DNA of 36,376 bases. It comes from Hyphomicrobiales bacterium. GTDB taxonomy: Bacteria > Pseudomonadota > Alphaproteobacteria > Rhizobiales > Devosiaceae. The position numbers and the translations under genes were made by a program. The DNA is taken from the NCBI GenBank assembly GCA_027066315.1, contig JAMONZ010000059.1:1-36376 (forward strand), read 5' to 3'. The notes under the pieces were generated by a model, which was given only the letters and a program-made list of their open reading frames with translations, was not told where the DNA came from and made no database searches. Shown in pieces: positions 1,097 to 36,376 of this stretch. Each line of letters begins with the position of its first letter. Position 1 is the first letter of the stretch.

Positions 1097-1972
1097 TTGG
1101 ATATACTTCAATTGCTAATTTCTGGCCTTGCAAACGGCTGTGTATATGGTCTGATTGCGCTTGGGTTTGTGTTAATTTATAAGGCTACCGAAGCTGTTAA
1201 TTTCGCTCAAGGCGATTTTATGATGTTTGGGGCATTTATTACAATTTGGCTTACAAATGCTGACTATATGGGTATAAATTTCTACCTTGCAGTGCCTTTG
1301 GCTATTTTAATTATGGGCATTCTTGGCTATTTGCTAGATATGCTTGTAATAAGGAGAATGTTTGGCCAGCCACAAATTGCTGTAGTCATTTTAACAATTG
1401 CTATTGGCTTTATTCTTCGCTTTATTGCAGGGGTTATATGGGGGCATGAGCCTCATTTGCTAGAAACTCCATTTGCTGGAAAAGAATTAAAAATTGGCTC
1501 ATTAGTTTTAGGCTTTGAAGAGATAGCAATAATCATTGTAACGCTTTTACTTACTTTATTTTTATTTTTATTTTTTAGAAAAGCTAAACTTGGCCAAGCA
1601 ATGCAGGCCGCTTCACAAAATCAGCTAGCCGCCTATTATGTTGGCATTCCTGTTAAAAAAGTTCAAAGTTTGATTTGGGCATTAGCAGGAGTTGTTGCCG
1701 CAGTTGCAGGAGCATTATTTGCCTCAAAAGGTGCAATTGACCCCTCTACTGGCCTGCTCGGCATAAAGGCTTTTGCTGCCGCCGTCATTGGTGGTTTTGG
1801 ATCATTGCCAGGGGCATTAATTGGCGGGCTTATCATTGGGGTTGTTGAGCCATTTGCAGCCTATTATTTACCCGCTGGTTATTCACAAGTTGCTCCATAT
1901 GCAATTATGTTATTGGTATTAATTCTTCGACCTGCTGGCCTTTTTTCTCAAATGCAAAACAAGAAGGTTTAA
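1097..1972 (+). CDS. livH: LivH-type ABC transporter inner-membrane permease
   Basis: This 291-residue protein is almost entirely hydrophobic and belongs to the branched-chain amino acid permease family. The opening (SGLANGCVYGLIALGF, then EAVNFAQGDFMM at about residues 33-44) is the LivH hallmark, and the C-terminal GGFGSLPGALIGGLIIG stretch is the conserved cytoplasmic coupling region. The start is a TTG at 1097 with GGGAGG at 1083-1088 as a good ribosome-binding site; there is no better ATG. It is the first gene of a five-gene importer operon that includes an acyl-CoA synthetase. Which substrate the family member carries cannot be read from the permease; the operon context favours an organic acid over an amino acid. 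Confidence 0.93.
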   Translation: MDILQLLISGLANGCVYGLIALGFVLIYKATEAVNFAQGDFMMFGAFITIWLTNADYMGINFYLAVPLAILIMGILGYLLDMLVIRRMFGQPQIAVVILTIAIGFILRFIAGVIWGHEPHLLETPFAGKELKIGSLVLGFEEIAIIIVTLLLTLFLFLFFRKAKLGQAMQAASQNQLAAYYVGIPVKKVQSLIWALAGVVAAVAGALFASKGAIDPSTGLLGIKAFAAAVIGGFGSLPGALIGGLIIGVVEPFAAYYLPAGYSQVAPYAIMLLVLILRPAGLFSQMQNKKV

Positions 1973-1986
1973 AGAGGTGTGACGAA

Positions 1987-3084
1987 ATGAGATTTGTTTT
2001 TAAACGCTCCTATGATGATGACATTAAACTTTTTAAGCATCGCCAGCAAGCCGGCTATTACGTGCTTTTGCTAGTATTAATGATGGCACTTCCTTGGTTG
2101 GTTGATGATTTTTTCTTGGGCGAGGCAACAAATGTTCTAATTTTGGCAATTGCTGGCATGGGTTTAATGTTGCTAACTGGCCAAACAGGGCAGGTCAGCC
2201 TTGGTCATGCTGCCTTTATGGCTCTTGGGTGCTACCTTAATGTAATATTAATGCAAAGAGGTGTCCCCTTTATTATTTCTTTGCCCCTTGCTGGAATTAT
2301 TACTGGTATTGTCGGGGCAATTATTGCAATGCCAATCCTGCGTTTGCATGGCATTTATTTAGCTATTGGAACGCTTGCAATTTCAGTGTTGAGTGAAGAT
2401 ATTATAGTTATATCAAAAAAATGGACAGGCGGCGTAATAGGGCTTGTTGCCGAGCCGATTAATATTTTTGGCCTTGATATTGATCGGTATGGGACACCTA
2501 TTTTATTTTATTTTTTGGTGCTTTTTGTCACTCTTTTTGTTCTGTTAATTTTCCGAAATATTTTACGTGCCCCGCTTGGTCGTGCTTTTGCAGCTATCAG
2601 AGATTCAGAGGTATCGGCTCAGGCTTTAGGAGTGAATGTTACAAAAACTAAAATAACAGCATTTGCACTTTCTTGTGGCATAGTTGGTCTTGCTGGCGGC
2701 TTGCTTGGTCATTTTGCAGGCGCATTTAACCATGAAACATTTAATTTGGTTTTATCAATTCAGCTATTGTTGATGATTGTTATTGGTGGGCTTGGGTCAA
2801 TCCACGGTGCTTTTTTTGGTGCAGTAATTGTTGGCTTTTTACCGCAATTAATTGCTATTTCACGTGATGGTATTTCTTCAATTTTCAACCTTGGCTCATT
2901 ACCACTACCTGGAATTGAAACGGCATCTTTTGCATTCATATTAGTTATTTTTATAATGTTTGAACCAAGGGGAATTTATGGTGTTTGGATAAAAATTCGC
3001 ACCTATTTTGAGCTATTTCCTTTTTATCGTAAAAATATGTTCAAGCGACAAAAATCTTATCTTAAAACGGAGCGCATGAAGTGA
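1987..3084 (+). CDS. livM: LivM-type ABC transporter inner-membrane permease
   Basis: This 365-residue membrane protein is the second permease of a LivHM pair. Residues about 45-75 (NVLILAIAGMGLMLLTGQTGQVSLGHAAFM) carry the LivM motif GQVSLGHA, and the conserved GGLGSIHGAFFGA segment lies near residues 261-273. It starts at an ATG 14 bases after livH, with AGAGGTG upstream. The C-terminal ~35 residues are highly basic and poorly hydrophobic, a cytoplasmic tail longer than in E. coli LivM-like cores. The stop overlaps the GTG start of the next gene, so translation is probably coupled. Confidence 0.93.
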   Translation: MRFVFKRSYDDDIKLFKHRQQAGYYVLLLVLMMALPWLVDDFFLGEATNVLILAIAGMGLMLLTGQTGQVSLGHAAFMALGCYLNVILMQRGVPFIISLPLAGIITGIVGAIIAMPILRLHGIYLAIGTLAISVLSEDIIVISKKWTGGVIGLVAEPINIFGLDIDRYGTPILFYFLVLFVTLFVLLIFRNILRAPLGRAFAAIRDSEVSAQALGVNVTKTKITAFALSCGIVGLAGGLLGHFAGAFNHETFNLVLSIQLLLMIVIGGLGSIHGAFFGAVIVGFLPQLIAISRDGISSIFNLGSLPLPGIETASFAFILVIFIMFEPRGIYGVWIKIRTYFELFPFYRKNMFKRQKSYLKTERMK

Positions 3085-3857
3085 GTTTTATTACCCTTGA
3101 AAATGTCACACTTCGTTTTGGCGGATTGGTTGCTGTAAATGATGTTTCTTTTCATGTTGGAGAGGGCGAGGTATTTGCACTTGTTGGACCAAATGGAGCT
3201 GGCAAATCTACTATTTTTAACCTTATTTCTCGTATTTATAACCCTGCAAGTGGTGATATTCGCTTTAAGGACAAATCAATTTTAAACCTTCGTCCCGATC
3301 AAGTCCCGTTTTTAGGCATTGCTAGAACTTTTCAAAATATTGAATTATTTGAGCAATCAACCGTGTTGCAAAACCTTTTAGTTGGCCGTCATAGACATCG
3401 CAAAAGCAATCTTTTAACTGAGATGTTTTTTGCTCCAAATGTTCGTGATGAGGAACGCCGCCACCGCCAAGTTGTTGAAGAGGTTATCGACTTTTTAGAA
3501 CTGCAAGCCTATCGGGATAAATATATCGCTGGCCTGCCTTATGGTGTGCGAAAAGTTGTTGAGTTAGCTCGTGCTTTGGCCACCGAGCCAAAGGTTTTAT
3601 TGCTAGATGAGCCGGCTTCTGGCCTTTCACTAGAAGAAACCAATGACATGATTTTTTGGATTGAAGACATTAAAAAACAAATGGGCATAACGGTTTTAAT
3701 GGTTGAGCATGATATGAATTTGGTTAGCTCGGTTTCTGATAGGGTGTTAGCACTTGCTGATGGCAAAGAATTGGCCATTGGCACGCCAAGCCAAGTGCAA
3801 TCACACCCAGCAGTTATTGAGGCATATCTTGGCACTGGGCAAAGGATTTCATCTTGA
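3081..3857 (+). CDS. livG: LivG-type ABC transporter ATP-binding protein
   Basis: A 258-residue ABC ATPase with Walker A GPNGAGKST (36-44), Walker B LLLDEP (173-178) and the H-loop in MVEHDMNL. The signature region reads LPYGVRK (152-158) rather than the usual LSYG/LSGG, so the Ser is replaced by Pro; to my knowledge this is a variant of the LivG branch and not a sign of inactivity. The ARTFQNIELF segment is typical of LivG. It begins with GTG at 3081, overlapping the livM stop by four bases (GTGA), with ACGGAG just upstream. It would pair with LivF to power the importer. Confidence 0.93.
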   Translation: MSFITLENVTLRFGGLVAVNDVSFHVGEGEVFALVGPNGAGKSTIFNLISRIYNPASGDIRFKDKSILNLRPDQVPFLGIARTFQNIELFEQSTVLQNLLVGRHRHRKSNLLTEMFFAPNVRDEERRHRQVVEEVIDFLELQAYRDKYIAGLPYGVRKVVELARALATEPKVLLLDEPASGLSLEETNDMIFWIEDIKKQMGITVLMVEHDMNLVSSVSDRVLALADGKELAIGTPSQVQSHPAVIEAYLGTGQRISS

Positions 3858-4630
3858 GCAAAACCCCAGTTTTAAAAATAGAAAATCTTGAGAGTTATTA
3901 CGGTCCAATAATGGCAATTAGAGGCGTAAGCCTTGAGGTGCGAGAGGGGCAGATTGTTACTATCTTGGGAGCAAATGGTGCGGGTAAAACGACCCTTTTA
4001 AAAACTATTTCAGGTGTAATGACCCCAGCCAAAGGCACAATTGAGTTAAATGGTGAAAATATTCAAGGGCAGGATGCCGATAAAATAGTCAAAAAAGGCA
4101 TGGTGCATGTGCCTGAAGGGCGAGAGATTTTTCCACTTTTAAGCGTGAAGCAAAATATTGCTATTGGTGCTTATGTAAGAAAAGATAAAGCCTCAGTTAA
4201 ACGTGATTTAGAGATGGTTTACTCTTATTTCCCAATTCTAAAAGAGCGCAATAATCAGCAAGCAGGAACGCTCTCTGGCGGTCAGCAGCAAATGCTTGCA
4301 ATTGCACGAGGCCTAATGGCAAGTCCAAAAGTCATGTTGCTTGATGAGCCAAGTCTTGGTCTATCTCCCCTTTTAGTACAAGAGATTTTTACAATTTTAA
4401 AACGCTTAAATAAAGAGCAAAAAGTTACCATGTTATTAGTTGAGCAAAATGCAAAAGTTGCGCTTGATGTAGCTGACTATGGCTATGTTATGGAATTGGG
4501 ACGTATTGTGATGGCTGATGATGCTAAAGTTTTAGAAAATTCCAAAGATATTCAGGCTTTTTATCTTGGTGTAAGAGAAGAAAATGAACGTGGACAGCGT
4601 CGCTATAAACAAAGGAAAACTTGGCGATGA
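3854..4630 (+). CDS. livF: LivF-type ABC transporter ATP-binding protein
   Basis: A 258-residue ABC ATPase with Walker A GANGAGKTT (39-47), signature LSGGQQQ (140-146) and Walker B LLDEP (162-166). VPEGREIFPLLSV is the LivF-specific segment. The start is TTG at 3854, overlapping the livG stop (TTGA), with AAAGGA about 8 bases upstream. The C-terminus carries an Arg/Lys-rich extension after the usual end of LivF (from about residue 243), and its 3' end overlaps the acyl-CoA synthetase start. Three of the first four genes here use TTG or GTG starts, most at overlaps, which suggests tightly coupled translation. Confidence 0.93.
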   Translation: MSKTPVLKIENLESYYGPIMAIRGVSLEVREGQIVTILGANGAGKTTLLKTISGVMTPAKGTIELNGENIQGQDADKIVKKGMVHVPEGREIFPLLSVKQNIAIGAYVRKDKASVKRDLEMVYSYFPILKERNNQQAGTLSGGQQQMLAIARGLMASPKVMLLDEPSLGLSPLLVQEIFTILKRLNKEQKVTMLLVEQNAKVALDVADYGYVMELGRIVMADDAKVLENSKDIQAFYLGVREENERGQRRYKQRKTWR

Positions 4631-33118: not shown

Positions 33119-33505
33119 TTATCTCTGTACAGGGCCGCCTGCACGTACCCATGCTCCTAGTCCACCACTAAGGTTTGCAACATTTTCATATCCCAATTGT
33201 GCCATTTGACGAGCAGCAACACCAGAGCGTGCGCCTGATGCACAAACAATGAAGATGCGCTTTTTCTCAGCAATAGCGGGAAGCGATCCACTACCATCAG
33301 GTTGGGCATGGTTAGACAATTCTTGCAATGGAGCTGCAATTGCACCCTTGATTGTACCGCCGTTAATTTCACCATGAGACCTTACATCGATAAAGATACT
33401 GTCTTCATCACCATGAAATTGCACTGCAGATCCTGCTGAGATATTTTCAAATCCTGCACCATTACCAGCACCGCCAAACATAGACATAATATTTCCAAAT
33501 GACAT
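33119..33505 (-). CDS. Rhodanese-like sulfurtransferase
   Basis: A 128-residue single-domain rhodanese. FIDVRSHGEINGGTIKGAIAAPL (38-60) is the substrate-side motif and the active-site loop is CASGARS starting at Cys88, followed by GYENVANLSGGLGAW. An N-terminal Gly- and Met-rich segment precedes the domain. It lies 27 bases downstream of the metallo-hydrolase on the same strand; in BigR operons of Xylella and Agrobacterium a rhodanese domain is fused to or beside this hydrolase. It probably moves sulfane sulfur between the persulfide pool and the dioxygenase. Confidence 0.9.
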   Translation of the reverse strand: MSFGNIMSMFGGAGNGAGFENISAGSAVQFHGDEDSIFIDVRSHGEINGGTIKGAIAAPLQELSNHAQPDGSGSLPAIAEKKRIFIVCASGARSGVAARQMAQLGYENVANLSGGLGAWVRAGGPVQR

Positions 33506-33532
33506 TTTATTCTCTTTCTTTTTTAAAATTTT

Positions 33533-34423
33533 TTAACTTACGATTTGTTCTTTAAATTGCTTTGCTTTTACCGGAACGCTCAAATAATGAACACCATTTT
33601 GCTCAGCTTTAGGAAAACGGCCAGCACGTATATTGACCTGAATTGATGGAAGTAATAAACGAGGCACAGCCAGTTTTGCATCGCGCTTATCTCGCATAGC
33701 AATGAAATCCTCCTCATTCACATTATCTTTAATATGAATATTATTGCGCTGCTCTTTTACTGTAGTTTCCCACGCATAATTTTCACGCCCCTCAGGTTTA
33801 TAATCATGGCACATATATAGAATTGTTTCGTTAGGCAATTCCAGCAATTTTTGAATTGAAGCATATAATTTTTTGCTATCGCCACCGGGGAAGTCAGCAC
33901 GAGCAGTGCCAAAATCTGGCATGAATAAAGTATCACCAACAAAAACAATATCATTAATTTTAAAGCTAACATCAGCAGGTGTATGCCCAGGGGTGAATAA
34001 AATTTCTATGTTTAATTCGCCAAGCTCAACTATTTGCCCATCGGCTAATAGCATATCAAAGTCAGAGCCATCGGTTTTAAGCTCAAGGTCATTAAAAACA
34101 GGCCTAAAGATTTTTTGAACCTCGTTAATATGCTCACCTATACCAATTTTTGCACCAGTTTTTGCCTTGATATATGGCGCACCAGAAAGATGGTCGGCAT
34201 GTGCATGAGTTTCAAAAGCGTAGATAATATTATAATTATTATCACTAGCAGCTTTTAAGATTTTCTCTACCGAGCGAGTATCAACCTCGCCACCATTTTG
34301 GTCATAGTCAAGCACAGGGTCGATAACTAAAGCCTTCTTGGTTTTAGTATCAGCAACCAGATAGCTTATTGTATTTGTGGCCTCATCAAAAAAAGCCTGT
34401 ATATATGGTTTATTATCACTCAT
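33533..34423 (-). CDS. blh: ETHE1/Blh-like MBL-fold hydrolase, probable persulfide dioxygenase
   Basis: A 296-residue metallo-beta-lactamase-fold protein. I choose ATG 34423 behind GGAG over a TTG at 34435. HAHADHL (73-79) gives the metal ligands; further are TPGHTPADVS, FVGDTLFMPDFGTARADFPGG and MCHDYKPEGRENYAWETTV, which match the Blh/ETHE1 group rather than glyoxalase II. These enzymes oxidise glutathione persulfide to sulfite. The divergent BigR-like gene and the TauE exporter support a sulfide-detoxification role. Whether it is iron-dependent dioxygenase or a hydrolase needs assay. Confidence 0.85.
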   Translation of the reverse strand: MSDNKPYIQAFFDEATNTISYLVADTKTKKALVIDPVLDYDQNGGEVDTRSVEKILKAASDNNYNIIYAFETHAHADHLSGAPYIKAKTGAKIGIGEHINEVQKIFRPVFNDLELKTDGSDFDMLLADGQIVELGELNIEILFTPGHTPADVSFKINDIVFVGDTLFMPDFGTARADFPGGDSKKLYASIQKLLELPNETILYMCHDYKPEGRENYAWETTVKEQRNNIHIKDNVNEEDFIAMRDKRDAKLAVPRLLLPSIQVNIRAGRFPKAEQNGVHYLSVPVKAKQFKEQIVS

Positions 34424-34459
34424 AATCTTCTCCAAGATTTATAATTTATAATTATTTTC

Positions 34460-34488
34460 TTGACCTATATATTAGCATTTACTAATAT
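34460..34488 (+). promoter_or_regulatory. Promoter of bigR-like/tauE operon
   Basis: TTGACC (34460-34465), 17-base spacer, TAATAT (34483-34488). The start at 34520 follows at a normal distance. The palindromic operator covers the spacer and the -10. Confidence 0.6.
34469..34488. promoter_or_regulatory. BigR-type operator, palindrome shared by divergent promoters
   Basis: ATATTAGCA-TT-TACTAATAT is an inverted repeat with 8 of 9 arm positions matching. It overlaps the rightward -10 and, on the minus strand, lies between TTGCAA (34494-34489) and TATATA-like bases. BigR is known to bind an AT-rich palindrome in its own promoter. A single bound repressor could shut both transcripts. Confidence 0.65.
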
Positions 34489-34519
34489 TGCAACAATAAA
34501 TTTAAAGAAAGTTTAATTT

Positions 34520-34879
34520 GTGAATATGATTGAGCAAGAAACTAATAATATAATTGAGCCAGAAAAAATGCGTGATCTTGAGCAAAATGCCGCTCGAGTT
34601 AGCTCTATTCTTAAAGCAATTGGAAATGACAAGAGAATTTTATTACTTTGTAGAATTGTTGAGCATGGCGAAATGACTGCTGGCTCGCTTGTTGGGGTTG
34701 CTGGTCTTTCTCAATCAGCAATGAGTCAGCATTTAAGTAAATTGCGTGATGAGGGTATAATTACATATCGTCGAGATGGGCAGACGCTTTGGTATCGCTT
34801 GGCAGATCAAAATATCAAAGAGCTAATAGTTACATTGCATCGGCTTTATTGTGGAACTTCAAAAGAGTTTTGCAACTAA
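34520..34879 (+). CDS. bigR: ArsR-family persulfide-responsive repressor (BigR/SqrR type)
   Basis: A 119-residue winged-helix repressor. The recognition region is AGLSQSAMSQHLSKLRDEGIITYRRDGQTLWYRL (61-94). Cys44 (LLLCRIVEHG) and Cys111 (HRLYCGTSKE) are 67 residues apart, matching the redox pair Cys42/Cys108 of Xylella BigR and Cys41/Cys107 of SqrR that form a tetrasulfide with persulfides. Metal-type CxC motifs of ArsR/SmtB are absent. The start is GTG 34520, with an ATG two codons later as alternative. It is divergent from the hydrolase and followed by the sulfite exporter. Confidence 0.85.
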   Translation: MNMIEQETNNIIEPEKMRDLEQNAARVSSILKAIGNDKRILLLCRIVEHGEMTAGSLVGVAGLSQSAMSQHLSKLRDEGIITYRRDGQTLWYRLADQNIKELIVTLHRLYCGTSKEFCN

Positions 34880-34907
34880 AATTACTCATAAATAAATAGG
34901 CAAATAA

Positions 34908-35699
34908 ATGCTATCAGATCCAAATCTCTTGTCTGTTTTTTCTGGCTCGCTCGTTGGTTTTATCTTAGCCCTTGTTGGTGGTGGAGGCTCAATTTTGGCG
35001 GTGCCATTATTAATTTATGTGGTTGGCATAAGCTCAACCCATCAAGCATTGGGAACATCTGCCATTGCCGTTTCTCTCACTGCTCTAATAAACCTAATTC
35101 CGCATTGGCGTTTGGGTTATGTAAAATGGCGTTGCGTTAGCTTTTTTGCTTTATTTGGAATTCTTGGGGCGTTTGTTGGCTCAAGCATTGCCAAGATGGT
35201 TGATGGTGAAAAACTCCTATTTCTATTCGGAATATTAATGTTGATAGTTGGGTTTTTTATGTTGTTTAAAAAAAGCTCTGCTGGAAATGCAGAAGTTCTT
35301 TTAACCAAAGACACAGCAAAAACACTTCTCTCTCGGCTTATTCCTGCGGGTTTTGCGGTTGGGCTTTTATCGGGATTTTTTGGTATTGGTGGCGGTTTTT
35401 TAATCGTGCCATCATTGATTTTTGCAACAGGTATGCCGCTTCGTTATGCTATGGGGACTTCTTTGGTGGCGGTTGCCGCATTCGGTGCGACTACGGCCAC
35501 AAATTATGCAATTTCAGGCATGGTAGATTGGAAAATAGCTGGGCTATTTATCTTTGGCGGTGCATTGGGTGGCTTGCTTGGCGTTGGCGCAAGTAAAATT
35601 CTTGGTAAAAGTACAAATGGCCTAAATTATATATTCTCTGCCATAGTGGTTGGGGTTGGTTTTTGGATTATTTATCAAGGTATTTTACAGTTTTTTTAA
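34908..35699 (+). CDS. TauE/SafE family sulfite exporter
   Basis: A 263-residue membrane protein with about eight hydrophobic segments. The TauE repeats are visible: GFILALVGGGGSILAVPLLIY (17-37) and GLLSGFFGIGGGFLIVPSLIF (about 147-167), each followed by a GTS motif (ALGTSAIAVS and AMGTSLVAVA). It probably shares the bigR promoter, 28 bases after bigR. In such modules it exports sulfite made by the persulfide dioxygenase. Family members also carry other sulfur anions, so the substrate is inferred from context. Confidence 0.88.
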   Translation: MLSDPNLLSVFSGSLVGFILALVGGGGSILAVPLLIYVVGISSTHQALGTSAIAVSLTALINLIPHWRLGYVKWRCVSFFALFGILGAFVGSSIAKMVDGEKLLFLFGILMLIVGFFMLFKKSSAGNAEVLLTKDTAKTLLSRLIPAGFAVGLLSGFFGIGGGFLIVPSLIFATGMPLRYAMGTSLVAVAAFGATTATNYAISGMVDWKIAGLFIFGGALGGLLGVGASKILGKSTNGLNYIFSAIVVGVGFWIIYQGILQFF

Positions 35700-35700
35700 A

Positions 35701-36376
35701 TCACAGTCTTTCTAAAAGGCCAATCTTTTCTCGCATTATGAAACGCAATGTTAAAACAATAGCAACAAAACCCAAGCCTGCTGCTAAGCCAAGCCAGACT
35801 CCAACTCCTTCAAAGTCTAAAACAAAAGCCGCATAATAAGCAGTGCCGATGCCAATAACCCAATAGCCAAAAAATGATAAAATCATAGGAATAAATGTAT
35901 CATTTAACCCACGCAAGCTGGCCGCCATAATAACCTGCGCTCCATCAACAAATTGAAATAAAGCTGCAACCCCAAGGTAAGAAACAGCAAGTAAAATAAC
36001 AGGAATATTTTGTTCAATATTTGGGTCAAGAAATAAATGAGCCAGAGTAAAGGGAGCAAAAATAAATAACGCACAAGTAAGTGTCATAAAAAATAATGTT
36101 ATATAATATGAAGTCCAGCCAGCTTTGTTAATGCCATCATAATTTTTTGCCCCAGCAAACAGCCCAACTCTAACCGTTGTTGCTTGCGATAGGCCAAGCG
36201 GAATCATAAAGGCAATAGCAGCACATTGCAGGGCAATGGCATGGGCGGCTACCTCGGTTGTGCCAAGCCAGCCCATCATTATAACTGCAACCCCAAACAT
36301 GCTAACTTCAGACATAATAGTTAAACCTATCGGTGTGCCAATGCGCAAAAGTTCAAAAAACCTTGGCCAGTCAGGT
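35701..36376 (-). CDS. MATE family efflux transporter, N-terminal part beyond window edge
   Basis: On the reverse strand the frame stays open through the right edge, so this is the C-terminal 224 codons of a longer gene, not a short protein; the usual length is about 450. WPRFFELLRIGTPIGLTIMSE is the inter-repeat hinge of MATE/NorM transporters, followed by WLGTTEVAAHAIALQ, IPLGLSQATTVRVG and six hydrophobic segments. It should be a cation-coupled drug or metabolite exporter. It converges on the TauE gene with one base between the stops, and no terminator is evident. Confidence 0.9.
   Translation of the reverse strand, partial: PDWPRFFELLRIGTPIGLTIMSEVSMFGVAVIMMGWLGTTEVAAHAIALQCAAIAFMIPLGLSQATTVRVGLFAGAKNYDGINKAGWTSYYITLFFMTLTCALFIFAPFTLAHLFLDPNIEQNIPVILLAVSYLGVAALFQFVDGAQVIMAASLRGLNDTFIPMILSFFGYWVIGIGTAYYAAFVLDFEGVGVWLGLAAGLGFVAIVLTLRFIMREKIGLLERL

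Follow-up and report, generated by a model that had tools for sequence, protein, structure and literature searches.

The ArsR-type repressor encoded in the window analyzed here, a stretch of 36,376 nucleotides from a Hyphomicrobiales bacterium of the Devosiaceae, is predicted to be a persulfide sensor that switches the two gene pairs beside it, together with a regulon scattered over the genome, through the motif TATATTAG-N6-CTAATATA. We give this reading a probability of about 0.8. The genes, the cysteine pair and fold of the repressor, the conservation of the operator, its recurrence, and the genes behind its sites come from computation. They lead us to propose that the window repressor itself binds the motif, that persulfide may be its signal, that repression would run in both directions, and that the enzymes would act on their predicted substrates. 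If so, a single 22-bp motif predicts persulfide-responsive genes in the family, and what was a suspected operator becomes a regulon hypothesis. An earlier sequence-only reading had seen the parts and the predicted operator correctly, but had made the unit too small and its layout more unusual than it is. The cassette is neither isolated nor oddly arranged, and its layout is common in the lineage.

Anatomy of the locus

The four genes (Table 1) are arranged divergently, as had been described, with rhodanese and dioxygenase running leftward, repressor and TauE rightward in the same direction as each other, and the palindrome between them. A 96-bp spacer (34424-34519) separates the start codons of the dioxygenase and the repressor. 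The range 33119-34423 had been assigned as a whole to a rhodanese. It holds two genes, one of which does encode a free-standing, cytoplasmic rhodanese, downstream of the dioxygenase gene; among 20 loci from relatives, 13 likewise have a rhodanese gene 3′ of the dioxygenase gene.

The other gene encodes the hydrolase, with the metal motif THAHADH, that had been called ETHE1/Blh-like. It corresponds to the dioxygenase part of Blh, scoring 355 bits on the model of that bifunctional sulfurtransferase/dioxygenase (NF040641) and covering positions 139-421 of 423. Membership in Blh was not found, the N-terminal sulfurtransferase domain being absent and the score below the cut-off of 625 bits. Its closest relatives are solved stand-alone dioxygenases: the best PDB match is 4ysk (304 bits), a persulfide dioxygenase of P. 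putida, followed by 9g8t (295 bits), with human ETHE1 at 80 bits. By fold and by match to solved structures, the product belongs with the stand-alone persulfide dioxygenases of the MBL superfamily and is a predicted enzyme of that kind. The TauE protein scores 166.4 bits on its Pfam model against a cut-off of 32.6, which places it in the family, with sulfite as its predicted substrate. Anatomy and conservation both support the suggested role of the locus in persulfide oxidation and sulfite export.

Table 1. Features of the divergent locus (positions in the window)
Feature	Coordinates	Strand	Description
Rhodanese gene	33119-33505	-	ORF, 128 aa; PF00581, 2.6e-14; CASGAR active-site loop
MBL-fold hydrolase, stand-alone persulfide dioxygenase-like	33533-34423	-	PF00753; 296 aa; ATG at 34423
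Rightward sigma-70-like promoter, TTGACC-17-TAATAT	34460-34488	+	9/12 consensus
Candidate leftward promoter, TTGCAA-18-TATAGG	34465-34494	-	Straddles operator; 8/12
Predicted operator, TATATTAG-CATTTA-CTAATATT	34468-34489	.	Perfect core 34469-34488
ArsR-type repressor	34520-34879	+	PF01022; GTG start or ATG at 34526
TauE/SafE-type sulfite exporter candidate	34908-35699	+	PF01925, 1.1e-48; 263 aa

The divergent layout had been taken as unusual. In 14 of 20 loci from relatives, however, dioxygenase and repressor stand back to back within 225 bp, and the arrangement also occurs on plasmids. Among the remaining six loci, one is divergent at about 0.8 kb, four are divergent at about 1 kb, and one has no repressor hit. 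On plasmids of Sphingomonas sp. CL5.1, S. paucimobilis, and Sphingobium sp. TomTYG65, an MBL gene faces ArsR-rhodanese-TauE across a spacer of ∼70 bp (the Sphingobium rhodanese, annotated as hypothetical, was assigned by position). These modules resemble the window locus in their closely spaced, back-to-back dioxygenase and repressor and in having both rhodanese and TauE. They differ in that their rhodanese lies between repressor and TauE and in that just the left operator half is clear in their spacer. Aureimonas sp. AU20 has a co-directional ArsR-YeeE-DUF6691-TauE-MBL series with ATATTAGAATATTCTAAAT before the repressor. A MATE transporter gene (35701-36375, minus strand) adjoins the cassette, as it does in many relatives; in four genomes (G015, G023, G028, and G033) no TauE gene lies between repressor and MATE.

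A dithiol repressor

The repressor is 119 aa long from its GTG start and 117 aa from its ATG, and it scores 37.7 bits on PF01022 against a cut-off of 22. Its closest PDB sequences are HlyU, YgaV, NolR, BigR, and SqrR, and its predicted structure (pLDDT 88.6) has HlyU, SqrR, NolR, YgaV, and BigR as best Foldseek matches; Pfam, the model, and Foldseek agree on the ArsR winged-helix fold. The two spaced cysteines noticed earlier are Cys44 and Cys111 (numbered from the GTG), which align with Cys31 and Cys98 of YgaV, a pair that the available part of PMC9774250 describes as conserved in SqrR/BigR homologues and as needed for sensing in SqrR and BigR. The pair is invariant in an alignment of 25 of the 30 available sequences, the omitted ones including G056, in which one cysteine is missing. 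It is retained in the best hits of 28 of 29 relatives, the exception again being G056, which lacks the second cysteine, and in all six plasmid homologues.

The window repressor thus has in common with SqrR, BigR, YgaV, and HlyU the fold of a small winged-helix protein, a pair of cysteines at matching positions with a spacing of about 67 residues, and an AT-rich palindromic operator (predicted here) over the core promoter. In the excerpts at hand, YgaV occupies the site at which polymerase binds its own gene (PMC9774250), and the HlyU operator is a 17-bp AT-rich imperfect palindrome (PMC4330345). The window repressor differs from the group in its score of 66.9 bits on the curated BigR equivalog NF040642, below the cut-off of 155 bits, and we therefore do not file it as BigR proper. 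It belongs with the SqrR/YgaV/HlyU/BigR group of dithiol ArsR-family regulators and is a predicted persulfide sensor. The cysteine pair and the fold, as matters of anatomy and conservation, support its earlier assignment to the SqrR/BigR type.

A predicted operator between two facing promoters

The 20-bp palindrome ATATTAGCATTTACTAATAT (ATATTAG-CATTTA-CTAATAT) that had been singled out is present exactly, as the perfect core of the predicted operator. It does lie on the rightward −10, its right arm supplying the TAATAT. Its placement inside a leftward promoter holds for position, and the frame is kept in relatives; the consensus is weak here, as a search of the spacer found no minus-strand promoter at 9/12 and a best frame of 8/12, and the strength of the leftward promoter in the window's genome is uncertain. 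In G023 and G028, the same frame reads TTGATA-18-TATAAT (11/12). On the rightward side, TTGAC stands at a constant offset before the operator in 10 of 15 family loci. At the mirror offset, read from the alignment, 12 of the 15 have a TTG hexamer (TTGCAA, TTGATA, TTGCTA, or TTGCTT), with TATANN 18 bp beyond it in most loci. Because these hexamers hold their offsets on both sides, one operator within two face-to-face promoters is a conserved plan. Anatomy and conservation alike suggest that the operator is positioned to switch both halves, as had been proposed.

When 15 loci (relatives and the window) are aligned on the operator, the majority base averages 13.75/15 over the 16 arm positions and 7.2/15 over the 6 spacer positions, in a count that places the operator in each locus by best motif match, which somewhat favors the arms, that includes two poorly matching operators (G013 and G016, 4 mismatches), and that omits G047 with its 0.8-kb spacer. 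With one locus per genus (8 genera), majority identity is 88% in the arms against 42% in the spacer. This comparison replaced an alignment of unequal stretches, which was not relied on. Conserved arms around a free spacer are the hallmark of a dimer site, and the palindrome is a predicted operator.

The motif recurs before sulfur and thiol genes

At up to one mismatch, the 20-mer has 11 sites in the window's genome (1.99 Mb, 98.7% complete), compared with 1 for a reversed control. Its congeners G001-G004 have 7, 11, 11, and 11 sites, with 1, 1, 0, and 1 for the control. The 22-bp form, again at up to one mismatch, has 68 sites in 61 family genomes, whereas its reversed control has 1. Eight such sites occur in the window's genome, and all eight are located 13-75 bp before a start codon. 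The genes behind them encode a PmpA/PmpB-like transporter (Sulf_transp), the transhydrogenase PntAA, a DUF302 protein, the window repressor, a thioredoxin, a 322-aa permease, a rhodanese with a signal-peptide-like start, and a 74-aa membrane protein. Because the operator recurs before about ten other sulfur and thiol genes in the genome, weaker sites included, the window module is part of a larger, predicted persulfide regulon and not, as had been claimed, a compact module under a single shared operator. Literature searches, largely of openly accessible papers, surfaced no operator of this sequence.

Many of these sites recur in the congeners. Those before thioredoxin, before DUF302, and between dioxygenase and repressor are found in all four; the site of the 74-aa protein is found in G002-G004, and those of PmpA, PntA, the permease, and the rhodanese are found in G003. 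In the window's genome, 2-mismatch sites precede a glutaredoxin gene, a divergent GST/second TauE pair, and the gene of a YgaP-like membrane protein. We accepted such sites where congeners support them, namely GST/TauE2 (G002-G004, with 2 mismatches in G003) and the YgaP-like protein (G002 and G004), and marked the glutaredoxin site as weak; among sites with up to 2 mismatches in G001-G003, none precedes a glutaredoxin. Sites with up to 3 mismatches show no enrichment in the window's genome (42 against 38 for the control), and those with 3 were set aside.

Labels for the 68 family sites came from BLAST against the proteins of the window's genome and from Pfam, with manual reading. On these labels, 62 sites precede recurring regulon genes, a figure that includes one single-case Blh-phosphatase-domain protein and three fatty-acid-hydroxylase-like genes, which are not sulfur genes. 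Three more are flanked by an M3 peptidase gene and a response regulator gene, and three are without a clear partner (G004:C19; G023:C157, CMD family; and G023:C274). Several further matches in the window's genome were set aside: a pair with identical bases at two contig ends (C10/C94) and a 3-mismatch site on C15 fall within reading frames and were discarded as noise, and a site on C81 between two genes without a sulfur role was excluded from the count.

Alternative explanations

The palindrome by itself proves nothing, because shuffles of the AT-rich spacer often match its arm length: 726 of 2000 dinucleotide shuffles of the 96-bp spacer yield arms of at least 7 with a gap of at most 12, a result on which we rejected the palindrome as evidence in itself. 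Its arms, however, are conserved across genera around a variable spacer, and the motif recurs genome-wide (68 against 1). The palindrome is therefore real, and the chance that it is a mere accident of AT-rich DNA is vanishingly small. The same recurrence, before thiol and sulfur genes across genome and family, makes it very unlikely that the locus is a self-contained divergent module with an operator unique to it. Such an arrangement would suit what is seen inside the window, where the palindrome has its sole exact copy and scores 24.3 on a position weight matrix (PWM) against 5.2 for the next best place, the former figure being biased upward since the PWM was trained on 26 genus sites that include the window's own.

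A different question is which regulator binds the motif. It stands at the promoter of the window-type repressor in 5 of 5 genus members. Ten family genomes outside the genus have a 20-mer site, and in eight of them (G005, G006, G007, G010, G014, G015, G021, and G022, the exceptions being G008 and G017) such a site lies at an ArsR homologue's promoter. Judged by eye across 37 genomes, site presence and repressor presence are only weakly associated, and we drew nothing from this comparison. These placements count against the notion, which we regard as unlikely, that the motif is bound mainly by another regulator and that the window repressor has a minor or local part. There are five HTH_5 proteins in the genome, and the one serious competitor for the motif is an ArsR paralogue on contig C81, which has cysteines at both sensor positions and outscores the window repressor on the BigR model (97.6 against 66.9 bits). 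The one candidate site in its vicinity, however, has 2 mismatches and lies ∼1.4 kb from it. This paralogue stands with genes for a YeiH-type transporter, a DsrE-like protein, and TusA (L157, G000:C81:1-7263, 1878-4021), with which it probably forms a separate sulfane-sulfur circuit. It also seems improbable to us that the window repressor senses some other thiol stress (peroxide, disulfide stress, or electrophiles) and heads a general thiol-redox response. Such a role would fit thioredoxin, glutaredoxin, transhydrogenase, and GST, whose genes serve thiol-redox functions in general, whereas the dioxygenase, rhodanese, TauE, and Sulf_transp genes are sulfur-specific, and the related HlyU reacts with persulfide but not with peroxide in the accessible portion of PMC10509353.

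Proposed mechanism

In the persulfide-sensing mechanism that we favor, the reduced repressor dimer would bind TATATTAG-N6-CTAATATA. From a site inside two overlapping, face-to-face promoters, one bound dimer could therefore shut both pairs, silencing dioxygenase and rhodanese to the left and the repressor gene and TauE to the right. Sulfide would be oxidized to persulfide by a sulfide:quinone reductase (SQR) encoded elsewhere; persulfide would then form a sulfur bridge between Cys44 and Cys111, and the dimer would leave the DNA. The dioxygenase would convert glutathione persulfide to sulfite, the rhodanese would shuttle sulfane sulfur among carriers, and TauE would export the sulfite. The repressor would also hold down the PmpAB transporter, thioredoxin, the second rhodanese, PntAA, DUF302, the 74-aa membrane protein, and the orphan permease, with GST/second TauE, the YgaP-like membrane protein, and glutaredoxin as possible members with weaker sites.

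The sequence-only reading had noted that the window has no SQR and had placed the source of persulfide elsewhere, and both points stand. None of the 26 Pyr_redox_2 matches in the genome is on the window's contig, and contig C9 encodes a sulfide:quinone reductase (best PDB match 3sz0, 493 bits). A protein on C89 is the flavin subunit (FccB) of flavocytochrome c sulfide dehydrogenase (5n1t, 369 bits), and the organism probably oxidizes sulfide by two routes. The operator is absent from the SQR and FccB regions, where the best PWM score is 2.4, compared with at least 20.6 for the training sites, whose own scores are biased upward. Thus, the persulfide source is not co-regulated by the motif, and we rejected SQR and FccB as members of the regulon. 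In its region (L198, G000:C89, 4318-7298), the FccB gene adjoins two genes read by eye as soxY and soxZ.

More broadly, we lean toward a family-wide regulon in which an SqrR-like sensor couples the oxidation and export of sulfur with a reducing arm of transhydrogenase, thioredoxin, and perhaps glutaredoxin. Such an arm is sensible because, in the available text of PMC6831875, OxyR raises thioredoxin 2 and glutaredoxin 1 of E. coli in the presence of sulfane sulfur, which both proteins are known to reduce. The predicted regulon would tie sulfide detoxification to NADPH supply and thiol reduction. It would also offer a first clue to the function of several unnamed membrane proteins, since membership, if true, would mean a role in persulfide stress for the DUF302 protein, the YgaP-like protein, the 74-aa membrane protein, and the 322-aa permease.

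Relation to known systems

In Rhodobacter, SqrR reportedly exerts broad control and is spoken of as a "master regulator." The cst locus of S. aureus has a divergent layout. It is also like the window locus in its persulfide-controlled dioxygenase, sulfurtransferase, and TauE, as described in the part of PMC5480029 consulted, and unlike it in having a CsoR-family repressor, in including sqr, and in the fusion of its dioxygenase to a sulfurtransferase. Its regulator CstR, of another family, is thought to directly control one operon (same excerpt of PMC5480029), and A. baumannii BigR is described in excerpts of PMC7315123 as controlling a handful of operons, whereas the window-type operator stands at 8 or more scattered promoters. 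In the bigR operon of Xylella/Agrobacterium, according to the available sections of PMC5823870, the repressor governs a dioxygenase domain, a sulfurtransferase, and a TauE exporter. The window locus likewise has repressor, dioxygenase, sulfurtransferase, and TauE. In the bigR operon, however, DUF442 sulfurtransferase and dioxygenase make up a single fusion protein, encoded together with the other genes in one operon; in the window, dioxygenase and rhodanese each have their own gene, and both genes run opposite to that of the repressor. Serratia PigS, as far as its partial description goes, is likewise a sensor of the ArsR type whose divergent operons contain sulfur transporters, but it is tied to prodigiosin control. 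The type of regulon predicted here is not new, because sulfane-sulfur-responsive ArsR regulators are reported, in the portion of PMC12423496 at hand, to act on sqr, sox, pdo, rhodanese, TauE, and YeeE genes.

Genes beside the recurring sites

Several genes next to operator-like sites deserve separate mention. The GST and second TauE genes (L156 2273-3921, G000:C29) repeat the plan of the window locus, diverging from one operator-like site that lies between them. The 322-aa permease-like membrane protein (L152 4071-5039, G000:C76; relatives at L178, L213, L238, and L243) has no Pfam or NCBIfam match, and its structure prediction, with a mean pLDDT of 38.4, is too poor to be informative. It is present in 4 of the 61 genomes searched and also in G062, and the operator precedes it in all five cases located with upstream DNA (G000, G003, G023, G033 with 2 mismatches, and G062). 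The 74-aa membrane protein (L154 3935-4159, G000:C94; L171, L189, L237, L250, and L265), with no Pfam match, has the operator before it in six genomes (G000, G002, G003, G004, G005, and G023).

A fatty-acid-hydroxylase gene (weakly OlsE-like; L182 885-1742, L167, L255, and L259) starts no more than about 10 bp from an operator-like site in G001 (2 mismatches), G002, G004, and G065. Finally, the site beside the M3 peptidase seems to have changed neighbors between genomes: its other neighbor is a response regulator in G001, G002, and G004 (L165, L183, and L262) and pntA in the window's genome (L149).
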